Part shown: positions 6,981 to 37,311 of the stretch, one piece after another
How the letters are laid out: each line of letters opens with the position of its first letter
Position numbering within the stretch: the first letter of the stretch is position 1
Origin: Celeribacter sp. HF31
Lineage (GTDB): Bacteria; Pseudomonadota; Alphaproteobacteria; Rhodobacterales; Rhodobacteraceae
Assembly: GCF_011806455.1 (NCBI RefSeq)
Contig: NZ_JAATOT010000001.1
Coordinates: 434,001-498,000, forward strand
Length of the DNA: 64,000 bases
Direction of reading: 5' to 3'
Position numbers and translations under genes: made by a program
The notes under the pieces: generated by a model
What the model was told of the DNA's origin: nothing
Seen by the model: only the letters and a program-made list of their open reading frames with translations
Database searches by the model: none

Positions 6981-6999
6981 GCATGTCTGAACAAAAAAA

Positions 7000-7072
7000 C
7001 ACCCGCGTCCAGGGAGGAGGAGAGGACGCGGGTGCTCTTGCATCGGACCACGAGGGAGGAGGAGTGGGTCCG
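7000..7072 (-). ncRNA. CcsR-type small RNA, fourth pair of hairpins, with terminator
   Basis: Two hairpins carrying UCCUCCUCC(C) loops on the minus strand. The distal one has a perfect 11-bp stem (7000-7010 with 7024-7034) followed by seven T residues (minus strand of 6993-6999), so it is also the rho-independent terminator of the whole locus. The other stem is CGGACC/GGTCCG plus AC/GT with one bulge (7044-7051 with 7064-7072). The spacer inside the pair is 9 bases. The family assignment to R. sphaeroides CcsR (conserved CCUCCUCCC motif, stress-induced) rests on the motif, the two-hairpin unit and the position behind a DUF1127 gene. Confidence 0.82.
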
Positions 7073-7086
7073 TATAAGAAAGAAAT

Positions 7087-7159
7087 GCGGCGGTGTCAGG
7101 GAGGAGGAAGACACCGCCGCCTTCAGTCACGATCCCTCAGGGAGGAGGAAGAGAGATCG
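7087..7159 (-). ncRNA. CcsR-type small RNA, third pair of hairpins
   Basis: Hairpin GCGGCGGTGTC / GACACCGCCGC (7087-7097 with 7110-7120, perfect 11 bp) and hairpin CGATCCCTC / GAGAGATCG (7130-7138 with 7151-7159, one mismatch). Both enclose the same 12-base loop, UUCCUCCUCCCU on the RNA strand. They are 9 bases apart and separated from the neighbouring pairs by 14 and 29 bases, which suggests one processed unit. Confidence 0.82.
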
Positions 7160-7188
7160 CATCTCTGGGGCGAGGCCCCGTTATTGGT

Positions 7189-7258
7189 GCGACGATGCCA
7201 GGGAGGAGGAAGCATCGTCGCTCTGGTCTTCAAGGTCCCAGGGAGGAGGAGAGGGACC
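7189..7258 (-). ncRNA. CcsR-type small RNA, second pair of hairpins
   Basis: Hairpin GCGACGATGC / GCATCGTCGC (7189-7198 with 7212-7221, perfect 10 bp) and hairpin GGTCCC / GGGACC (7234-7239 with 7253-7258). The loops again read CCUCCUCCC on the RNA strand. The intra-pair spacer is 12 bases. Stem sequences share nothing with the other pairs, so only the loop is under sequence constraint. Confidence 0.82.
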
Positions 7259-7277
7259 CCGAATTCCGGTATCTGGT

Positions 7278-7345
7278 GCGGCAGCGCCAGGGAGGAGGAG
7301 AGGCGCCGCCGCAGGTATCAGGGCCTCAGGGAGGAGGAGGAGGCC
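7278..7345 (-). ncRNA. CcsR-type small RNA, first pair of hairpins
   Basis: Closest pair to the ccaF1 stop codon. Hairpin GCGGCAGCGCC / GGCGCCGCCGC (7278-7288 with 7302-7312, a single A-C mismatch) and hairpin GGCCTC / GAGGCC (7322-7327 with 7340-7345), 9 bases apart, with the constant CCUCCUCCC loop. It begins 13 bases after the ccaF1 coding region, so co-transcription and processing from the ccaF1 3' UTR is expected, as known for R. sphaeroides. Confidence 0.82.
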
Positions 7346-7358
7346 GTGATGAGAATTC

Positions 7359-7574
7359 TTATTTGCCGTATGCGGCCTCGTGGGCCACGGCGTTGATGGA
7401 TGCGCGGGACATGCCCAGATCGCGCAGGTCGCGGTCGCTCAGGCCGGAGAGTTCCAGCATCGTCTCGCGATAAACGCGGTAACGGGCAACACGTTCCCCG
7501 AGTGCTTTGAACAGCCCGCCGAAGAGACCGGAGGAAGCCGTTGCGGCGCTGTTGATGTCGTTTGCGTAAGCCAT
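7359..7574 (-). CDS. ccaF1: DUF1127 small protein, CcaF1-like
   Basis: 71 residues. The C-terminal half is a DUF1127 domain (YRETMLELSGLSDRDLRDLG, then MSRASINAVAHEAAYGK) after an N-terminus rich in Ala, Gly and Ser. DUF1127 proteins are small arginine-rich RNA-binding or regulatory proteins. In R. sphaeroides the CcaF1 protein is encoded directly ahead of four CcsR RNAs, affects their maturation, and is induced with them through RpoHI/RpoHII. The same gene order, and as I recall the same length (71 aa), is seen here. The start ATG at 7574 has only a weak purine stretch (AAGGTTAAAG) upstream. The role in this organism is inferred from the family and context. Confidence 0.85.
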   Translation of the reverse strand: MAYANDINSAATASSGLFGGLFKALGERVARYRVYRETMLELSGLSDRDLRDLGMSRASINAVAHEAAYGK

Positions 7575-7965
7575 GTGACTTTAACCTTAGATATGCGTTC
7601 GGACCGATGTCCGCAGGATGCGCCGCCGCTCGGTCCCTTCGGGCTTCTGCCGGTCTTCGAGTGAACCACCTGGAGTGAACCGTGAGGTCTTTCGAAGCAA
7701 ACCGCTTTGGTGCGGTCGAAGGTGCCTGCCTTGGCTGCTGTTGAACCTAATATTGTGGAATTGCTGCGTTTGCACAATCCACCCAATCGGCATTGCCGCT
7801 ATGCAGAATATGCATGAGTGGTCCTGACCTATTTTTCACAGTGCCTATTCTCTATGCATTCGGTCACGGGTATCGGTGGATTGAGCGCTGGAAATAGGTC
7901 AGTAAACCCCCTATTTCGTAGGGAAAGCCGACCAAACCGCCGACCAAATTGAAAGAGGGGACCCT
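7575..7965. other. Divergent regulatory region between ccaF1 and mrp
   Basis: 391 bp with no credible gene. On the ccaF1 side a minus-strand promoter candidate lies at 7749-7777. On the mrp side the inverted repeat TGACCTATTT (7825-7834) / AAATAGGTCA (7892-7901) has perfect 10-bp arms 57 bases apart, and further CCTATT copies occur at about 7844 and 7911. The repeats could be regulator half-sites or form a long-range stem. Confidence 0.5.
7749..7777 (-). promoter_or_regulatory. Candidate promoter of ccaF1-ccsR
   Basis: On the minus strand TTGTGC (7777-7772) and AATATT (7754-7749) are separated by 17 bases, about 175 bp ahead of ccaF1. TTG-type -35 boxes fit both housekeeping and RpoH sigma factors of this group. 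The heat-shock assignment comes from the R. sphaeroides precedent, not from a clear consensus here. Confidence 0.3.
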
Positions 7966-36399: not shown

Positions 36400-37311
36400 A
36401 TGTCGAGCAGGCAGTCCCCGAAAGTCGCGGTCCTCAAAGGCGGTCCCTCTGCTGAACGCGAGGTGTCTTTGTCTTCCGGTCGCGAATGCGCAGAGGCGCT
36501 TCGGGGTGAAGGATTCGAAGTGGTTGAGATCGACGCAGGCGAAGACCTGTGCGCGCAGCTGGCGACGGTCGCGCCCGATGTCGTGTTCAACGCGCTGCAT
36601 GGCCGCTTTGGCGAAGACGGCTGTGTGCAAGGCTTGCTCGAATGGATGCGCCTTCCCTACACCCACTCCGGCGTGCTCTCCTCTGCTTTGGCTATGGATA
36701 AGGAGAAGACCAAAGAGGTCTACCGTGCCGCGGGCCTTCCCATCGTGCCCTCCAAACTGGCGTCCCGCTTTGAGGTCGAGGCCGGTCATGTGATGGCGCC
36801 GCCCTATGTGGTGAAACCTTATAACGAAGGGTCTTCCGTAGGCGTCTATCTGGTCCATGAGGGCGCCAACGCCCCGCGTCTGGCCGAAGAAATGCCGCCG
36901 GTCGTGATGGTCGAACAATATGCGCCGGGGCGTGAGCTGACGTGCTCTGTGATGGGCGACAAACCGCTCTGCGTCACCGATATTCTCACCGACGGCTGGT
37001 ATGACTACGAGGCGAAATATGCCGAGGGCGGCTCGCGCCATGTCTGCCCCGCTGACATCCCCGAAGAGATCACGAAAGCCTGTCAGGATTACGCGCTCAA
37101 GGCGCATCAGGCGCTTGGCTGTCGCGGTGTGTCGCGGACGGATTTCCGTTGGGATGAGGCGAAGGGGCTGGACGGTCTGGTGCTGTTGGAAACCAACACC
37201 CAGCCGGGCATGACGCCGACCTCGCTCTCGCCGGAACAGGCGCAAAAGAGCGGCATCACGTTTGGCCAGTTCTGCAAATGGATGGTGGAGGACGCCTCAT
37301 GCGACCGATAG
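36400..37311 (+). CDS. ddl: D-alanine--D-alanine ligase
   Basis: ATP-grasp ligase making D-Ala-D-Ala, 303 residues from ATG 36400 (GAGG nine bases upstream). The family opening [20 protein letters not shown] is intact, followed by [28 protein letters not shown], the ATP-grasp lysine in [16 protein letters not shown] and the metal ligands in [15 protein letters not shown]. The DdlB-type position in the dcw cluster is conserved. Its 3' end overlaps ftsQ by 13 bases. Confidence 0.96.

Follow-up and report, generated by a model that had tools for sequence, protein, structure and literature searches.

A ccaF1-CcsR-type array of eight anti-Shine-Dalgarno hairpins in Celeribacter and a candidate LsrB/VtlR-type box shared with a SorY-like sRNA

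On the minus strand of the window (the whole 64-kb stretch of DNA of a marine Celeribacter that was analysed), a DUF1127 gene is followed by eight hairpins with the same anti-Shine-Dalgarno (aSD) loop, and the box found in its promoter recurs between a LysR gene and the SorY-like sRNA beside it. Judged by sequence, the gene and array are a cuckoo/CIN1 (ccaF1-CcsR) locus, a kind that is already known, and the array adds one more case to the stress-RNA clusters described before. By analogy with the control of AbcR, NfeR1 and DUF1127 genes by LsrB/VtlR, we propose that one LysR regulator jointly activates ccaF1-CcsR and SorY. For the locus in the window we consider it likely that a cuckoo/CIN1-type operon is activated by an LsrB/VtlR-type LysR regulator and that its array is cut to four aSD RNAs. 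One transcript from a promoter near 7743 would encode the DUF1127 protein and carry the eight aSD hairpins as its 3′ UTR, which would probably be cut into four two-hairpin RNAs (in R. sphaeroides by RNase E). The identical UCCUCCUCCCU loops would pair with GGAGG-rich ribosome-binding sites and reduce translation of a set of mRNAs, while the stems would only present the loop and drift in paired fashion. We infer that the LysR regulator binds at 7814-7791 and activates the ccaF1-CcsR promoter, and the same regulator, encoded beside sorY, would also activate the SorY-like aSD sRNA.

A pattern search of the 64-kb window detected eight exact copies of TCCTCCTCCCT, all on the minus strand at 7011-7338, and, with one mismatch allowed, no further copy elsewhere; in 100 shuffled sequences the pattern occurred 0.91 times on average and at most five times. 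Every copy forms the loop of a hairpin whose stem has 6–12 bp, in an array at 7345-7000 (minus strand). In the order of transcription these are hairpins 1 (7322-7345) and 2 (7277-7313, 12 bp) in unit 1, hairpins 3 (7229-7263) and 4 (7189-7221) in unit 2, hairpins 5 (7129-7160) and 6 (7087-7120) in unit 3, and hairpins 7 (7044-7072) and 8 (6993-7034, including its T run) in unit 4, identified by motif search and folding and, for hairpins 1 to 7, also by covariation. The folding energy of 7358-6990 was -174.5 kcal/mol, compared with -114.7 ± 5.3 kcal/mol over 200 dinucleotide shuffles (z = -11.4), folding of the opposite strand reached z = -4.5 (100 shuffles), and the eight loop motifs had a mean unpaired probability of 1.0 in the fold of 7358-6990. 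An earlier note, made from the sequence alone, had described eight hairpins with one loop on this strand, the last doubling as a terminator, and both descriptions hold: all eight loops are exact and unpaired, and hairpin 8 runs directly into seven T residues (6999-6993), forming a predicted intrinsic terminator whose stem lengthens to 16 bp if the A/T tail is counted. Its count was right for the hairpins that bear the motif but missed a ninth, small and motif-less hairpin (GGGGC-CTC-GCCCC, 7167-7179, minus strand) which folding predicts in the longest spacer, and its range of 6 to 11 bp for the stems fits most of them but not the 12 bp of hairpin 2. The gaps between successive motifs are 30, 40, 31, 52, 32, 36 and 33 bases, an alternation of short and long with which pairing as four two-hairpin units fits in this array.

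Relatives were gathered by a DUF1127-alignment scan, of which the best 80 of 154 loci were kept; they come from Rhodobacteraceae genera or broader metagenome bins, with Celeribacter nearest. Among these best 80 loci the number of hairpins per locus ranged from 1 to 19 (median 7), with at least two in 75; the count accepts stems of at least 5 bp, 381 of the 567 hairpins having at least 8 bp, and for 4 of the 80 loci a contig end is no more than 1 kb away. Strict pairing of hairpins was rejected as a family rule, with 41 even and 39 odd counts, hence the four pairs proposed earlier agree with the gap alternation in the window but are a local feature given the range of 1 to 19. Motifs stand behind the DUF1127 gene in the window and in all 12 other genus members fetched, one of which (G006) has four motifs only and lies near a contig end, and DUF1127 orthologs of 68–71 aa precede the array in 12 of 12 of these. 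More widely, at least one pair of CCTCCTCCC motifs 20–50 bases apart was present in 217 of 295 family genomes, nearly all of different genera. One genome (G185:C1, from 334949 on) has 25 paired motifs, 13 of them listed by position, with a three-hairpin unit repeated in tandem approximately every 140 bases, hence arrays can grow by tandem duplication.

The gene ahead of the array (7359-7574, minus strand, 71 aa) matches PF06568 with 42.9 bits (E = 3.9e-11), as expected for the DUF1127 (CcaF1-like) gene that had been read there. At gathering level no Rfam family matched in the 64-kb window. The covariance-model search for the CcsR family that the earlier note had suggested gave CcsR1 (RF02791) matches over unit 1 (53.2 bits, 7357-7273), unit 2 (37.1 bits, 7266-7184) and unit 4 (43.7 bits, 7082-6994), all of them under the gathering score of 65.3, the best having E = 5.7e-12 in a 1.1-kb search; ar14 (RF02344) matched over two stretches with 52.7 and 50.4 bits against a gathering score of 58.8. 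In R. sphaeroides, ccaF1 is described as encoding a 71-aa protein with a DUF1127 domain and its 3′ UTR as yielding four CcsR RNAs (PMC10253847, PMC8625941), the anatomy that the earlier note had given; CIN1 is the name in use for DUF1127 genes with CcsR-like RNAs (PMC10253847, PMC8625941), and published accounts address the function of the R. sphaeroides locus (PMC8625941, PMC8307010). The Pfam match, the sub-gathering CcsR1 and ar14 matches and this published anatomy together support the assignment to a ccaF1-ccsR-type locus. Like ccaF1-CcsR1-4, the Celeribacter locus has a 71-aa DUF1127 gene with aSD hairpins on the same strand in its 3′ UTR, a terminator at the 3′ end and room for four two-hairpin units; unlike it, the array scores under the Rfam gathering level (53.2 of 65.3) and the promoter carries an LsrB/VtlR-type box, the R. 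sphaeroides locus being compared here by its published description. A second likeness is to NfeR1/ar14 of Rhizobiales, where CCUCCUCCC occupies every hairpin loop with stems free and an LsrB site TGCA-N6-GCAT lies at approximately the same distance from the start, whereas NfeR1 has three hairpins and its own sRNA promoter (PMC10746234) and the array scores 52.7 bits under the ar14 gathering score of 58.8.

The reading of the loop as an anti-Shine-Dalgarno sequence agrees with relatives that have been tested, as the aSD motifs of NfeR1 and AbcR1/2 are reported to silence mRNAs at the ribosome site (PMC10746234, PMC8844928). Upstream of ATG codons, GGGAGGAGG was found at 7 places in the window genome with none in the reversed control, and at 63 places against 9 in nine genomes, an excess that general Shine-Dalgarno enrichment can produce. 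Four of the 7 places in the window genome lead into open reading frames of at least 129 aa, which are candidates only and by the look of their sequences include a universal stress protein, a class V aminotransferase, a response regulator and a GAF-domain regulator. In the universal-stress-protein-like gene (L267, position 1961, minus strand; G000:C12 near 189968), the ribosome site AGGGAGGAGGA is complementary to the CcsR loop over 11 of 11 bases. A further idea, that weak-looking ribosome sites let ccaF1-like genes avoid silencing themselves, was rejected for want of a clear difference from window open reading frames: loop-complementary runs of at least 5 bases occurred in 7 of 67 ATG-start DUF1127 genes (among the 80) and in 6 of 40 window open reading frames.

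Identical loops on free stems, in copy numbers of 1 to 19 across 80 loci and with 25 paired motifs in one genome, would also suit hairpins that stay uncut and act chiefly as a sponge which titrates a protein or bulk mRNA ribosome sites. We regard this as unlikely, given that the ccaF1 3′ UTR of R. sphaeroides is reported to be cut into the individual RNAs CcsR1-4, with maturation by RNase E (PMC8625941), and the aSD motifs of NfeR1 to silence defined targets redundantly (PMC10746234).

The proposed activation by an LsrB/VtlR-type regulator draws on the promoter. In an alignment of 12 genus members (window included), two blocks upstream of the DUF1127 start are conserved amid diverged sequence, both on the minus strand. 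Box 1 (TGCATATTCTGCATAGCGGCAATG, 7791-7814), a candidate LsrB/VtlR-type site, contains the core TGCA-N6-GCAT as an exact string (7814-7801) and a part similar to the Brucella VtlR motif (7805-7791). Box 2 (GATTGTGCAAACGCAGCAAT, 7760-7779) includes a predicted -35 element TTGTGC (7777-7772) followed by a conserved GCAGCA in the spacer. From the footprint of the 12 genus members, a predicted -10 element CAATATT (7749-7755) was placed by eye 16 or 17 nt after the -35 of box 2, which puts the predicted transcription start near 7743; a conserved TTG of the -35 and an AT-rich -10 upstream of the ccaF1-like gene were likewise judged by eye.

This module recurs across the family. Within 450 nt upstream of the DUF1127 gene, TGCA-N6-GCA[TA] was present in 79 of 80 loci, compared with 3.8 on average and at most 9 in 100 Markov shuffles, and the start-to-start distance between box 1 and box 2 was 34 or 35 nt in 78 of 80. 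In box 2, TTGTGC and GCAG were invariant in 74 of 74 aligned rows, the other 6 of 80 having been dropped for more than 6 mismatches to the reference box or for being short; boxes were chosen by closeness to the genus sequence, so the raw match counts lean upward. A box matrix built without genus members (54 distinct boxes) placed 7814-7791 first among all positions on both strands of the window with 34.4 bits, the next score being 12.2. That runner-up lies at 36587-36610 (plus strand).

Both parts of box 1 have published counterparts. The LsrB site of S. meliloti nfeR1 is given as TGCA-N6-GCAT at -72 to -60 (PMC10746234), and the same string in the window lies at approximately -71 to -58 relative to the predicted start. 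In Brucella, VtlR has the motif CAATGCAGCCATGCA and is described as a positive regulator of AbcR2 and of three DUF1127 genes (PMC12595884). The reverse complement of CAATGCAGCCATGCA occurred within 300 nt upstream in 21 of 80 loci with at most one mismatch (0 of 4000 shuffles) and in 53 of 80 with at most two (5 of 4000). The window's own site agrees with the Brucella 15-mer at 12 of 15 positions, and the window has two further places that fit it equally well or better, so this single site proves nothing by itself and the case rests on conservation in the family. Taken at the level of sequence, the conserved promoter module suggests a regulator of the LsrB/VtlR type.

Six DUF1127 matches were detected in the window genome, of which two fall under the Pfam cut-off and one (L137) is the array's own gene. 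Considered as carriers of the box, the others yielded one paralog only (L136), with a weak form, TGCATTTTGTGCAT, that has 7 mismatches and lies 137 nt ahead of the start. In a genus member, a box with two mismatches was also observed ahead of another DUF1127-like gene of 71 aa (L164, G002:C5:208141).

A search of five genus genomes for the box pattern with up to three mismatches returned 17 to 37 places in each, against 2 to 7 for the reversed control. The zero-mismatch box marked the array promoter in 5 of 5 genomes and one further site in two of them (G003 and G008); in G002 and G010 no second zero-mismatch place was found, and the sorY position was not located in these two. The ortholog of the further site in the window genome has two mismatches, as does one site in coding DNA. 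This further site precedes a SorY-like sRNA directly 3′ of a LysR gene of 305 aa (G000:C9:318475-319389 in the window genome), the sRNA scoring 58–62 bits for SorY in three genus members (gathering 111), with SorX and mmgR also matching below gathering. At the window-genome sorY the distance from box to -35 is 9 nt greater than at ccaF1.

Of 149 family genomes, 145 have exactly one match to the LysR protein (E ≤ 1e-60), and 64 of 115 class genomes contain a match as well (E ≤ 1e-40). Among solved structures the closest is 9HH1, LsrB of A. tumefaciens (245.9 bits, the next 108.8), and the LysR protein is the reciprocal best hit of a trxB-adjacent homolog in a genome of another family (G345; 307.8 bits, the next 128.9). 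The neighbourhood was examined at the best-scoring loci, which came from 31 of 146 family genomes and, for other families of the class, from 28 of 62, and CCTCCCTGT lay within 700 nt 3′ of the LysR gene in 30 of 31 and 20 of 28, respectively. Between gene and motif, the matrix derived from the DUF1127 promoters matched at p ≤ 0.05 in all 30 family loci scored (200 shuffles each; of the 31 fetched, one was without the CCTCCCTGT motif) and exceeded 8 bits in 24 of 30, with 0 of 30 in the coding control, and the family matches sit 106–122 nt before CCTCCCTGT. In the other families 20 of 28 loci were scored, with p ≤ 0.05 in 15 of 20; only 5 of 20 exceeded 8 bits, so the box is weak outside the family and a class-wide box was rejected. 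Of the 31 family loci, 21 have the strict form TGCA-N6-GCA[TA] 3′ of the LysR gene; in the window genome it is absent there, with TGCG instead.

The same loci limit how far the regulator can be named. A TrxB protein motif upstream of the LysR gene was present in 0 of 31 family loci versus 25 of 28 other-class loci, hence the label LsrB/VtlR-type and not LsrB proper; in the window genome an acyltransferase-like open reading frame takes the place of trxB. LsrB of A. tumefaciens is described as having a redox-active cysteine pair, C144/C273 (PMC11975290), whereas the window-genome LysR protein has one cysteine and thus no such pair, the 31 family loci have 0–2 cysteines, and cysteines are absent altogether at 20 of 28 other class loci, so the pair may be no defining feature of the wider family. 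By sequence the protein would resemble LsrB/VtlR in place and site but not in trxB or the cysteine pair. SorX-type Rfam matches adjoin the LysR gene in 9 of 17 other-family loci searched.

Compared with the LsrB/VtlR-AbcR-DUF1127 circuit of Sinorhizobium, Agrobacterium and Brucella, the arrangement is alike in that the LysR regulator adjoins an aSD sRNA and that a similar box precedes both the sRNA and DUF1127 or similar small-protein genes (PMC7486931, PMC8844928, PMC12595884). It differs in that the neighbouring sRNA here is SorY-like, trxB is upstream in 0 of 31, the cysteine pairs are lacking, and the CcsR array forms part of the DUF1127 message.

Against the LysR part of the model stands the published control of the R. 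sphaeroides locus from an RpoHI/RpoHII promoter (PMC10253847, figure legend), where the passages that describe this control mention no LysR input. The CcsR cluster could accordingly be under RpoHI/RpoHII alone, with the upstream boxes belonging to another regulator or being promoter elements of the RpoH holoenzyme. This fits the conserved TTG of the -35, which RpoH promoters require (PMC3441632), and, in the window genome, the RpoH-like CTTGAA-N16-CCTAAAT in the promoter of the SorY-like sRNA, a sequence close to the S. meliloti RpoH1 consensus (PMC8844928). The ccaF1 -35 in the window, however, is TTGTGC and not CTTGAA. Moreover, box 1 spans from 37 nt (its start) to 13 nt (its end) upstream of the -35, a distance to which the usual sigma contacts do not reach; it resembles LsrB/VtlR sites, and a box of this kind, with constant spacing to the sRNA motif, also stands between the LysR gene and the sRNA. 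We therefore find exclusive RpoH control distinctly unlikely, and RpoH and LysR control of ccaF1-CcsR need not exclude each other.

Extending joint LysR activation beyond the genus, we lean, with somewhat more reserve, towards a Rhodobacteraceae-wide arrangement in which one LsrB/VtlR-type LysR regulator commands an aSD-RNA regulon of SorY and the ccaF1-CcsR array. In the open literature searched we found no report of LsrB/VtlR together with CcsR or SorY, nor one for Rhodobacteraceae. The promoter links CcsR and SorY of Rhodobacter, AbcR and NfeR1 of rhizobia, and the VtlR-controlled DUF1127 genes of Brucella. Should this link prove correct, a single regulator and a single type of loop would partly explain how translation is retuned under stress in many Alphaproteobacteria. 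If true, the stress RNAs SorY and CcsR of R. sphaeroides would be one unit, and a circuit of LysR regulator, aSD sRNA and DUF1127 would be ancestral to much of Alphaproteobacteria and could run without the cysteine switch of Rhizobiales, that is, on another signal. It would also contradict the published claim that LsrB occurs in Rhizobiales alone, which is drawn from a tree of 3 LsrB and 9 OxyR proteins (PMC11975290).

How the array itself evolves was examined in an alignment of 11 Celeribacter arrays, namely that of the window, those of 7 among the 12 genus members fetched besides it, and three from relatives; arrays that differ in hairpin number (Pacificibacter type, G006) were left out. The window's eight stems, imposed on the 11 arrays, were paired in 97.2% of cells, and sliding the partner by 1–3 columns lowered pairing to 38–51%; the reference structure comes from one aligned row and is thus somewhat favoured. 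Two-sided changes occurred in 18 of 78 pairs (mean 7.9 in shuffles, none of 500 reaching 18), including 4 of the 12 pairs of hairpin 2, while a measure of further pair types was not raised (38 versus 40.1 shuffled; 449 of 500 as high). The loops were nearly invariant, altered in 4 of 11 rows in hairpin 7, the least conserved, and in 1 of 11 in hairpin 6. Compensatory change in the stems around nearly fixed loops upholds the earlier note's argument for selection on structure. It is highly improbable that the array is a 3′ UTR which mainly protects or times the DUF1127 message, with its loops a by-product of tandem duplication: the repeated three-hairpin unit of G185 makes such growth possible, but orthologs keep their loops while the stems diverge with compensatory changes, so duplication alone is insufficient.

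Further aSD motifs were noted away from these arrays. In a genus member a second two-hairpin aSD unit was detected (L053 2989-3029, plus strand, G012:C19), with no DUF1127-like open reading frame seen just before it. A motif at C12 of the window genome (L055) was rejected as a further hairpin, having a stem of 3 bp only and being the complement of a ribosome site. The window genome also has a lone aSD hairpin of 11 bp with the same loop (L054 1580-1613, plus strand, G000:C9 near 90088), which is present in the near relatives G001 and G007 too; judged by the look of the sequences, it belongs to the 3′ UTR of a phasin-like gene and precedes a terminator, with a phaR-like gene, whose leader contains AAAGGGAGGGGAG, further downstream.
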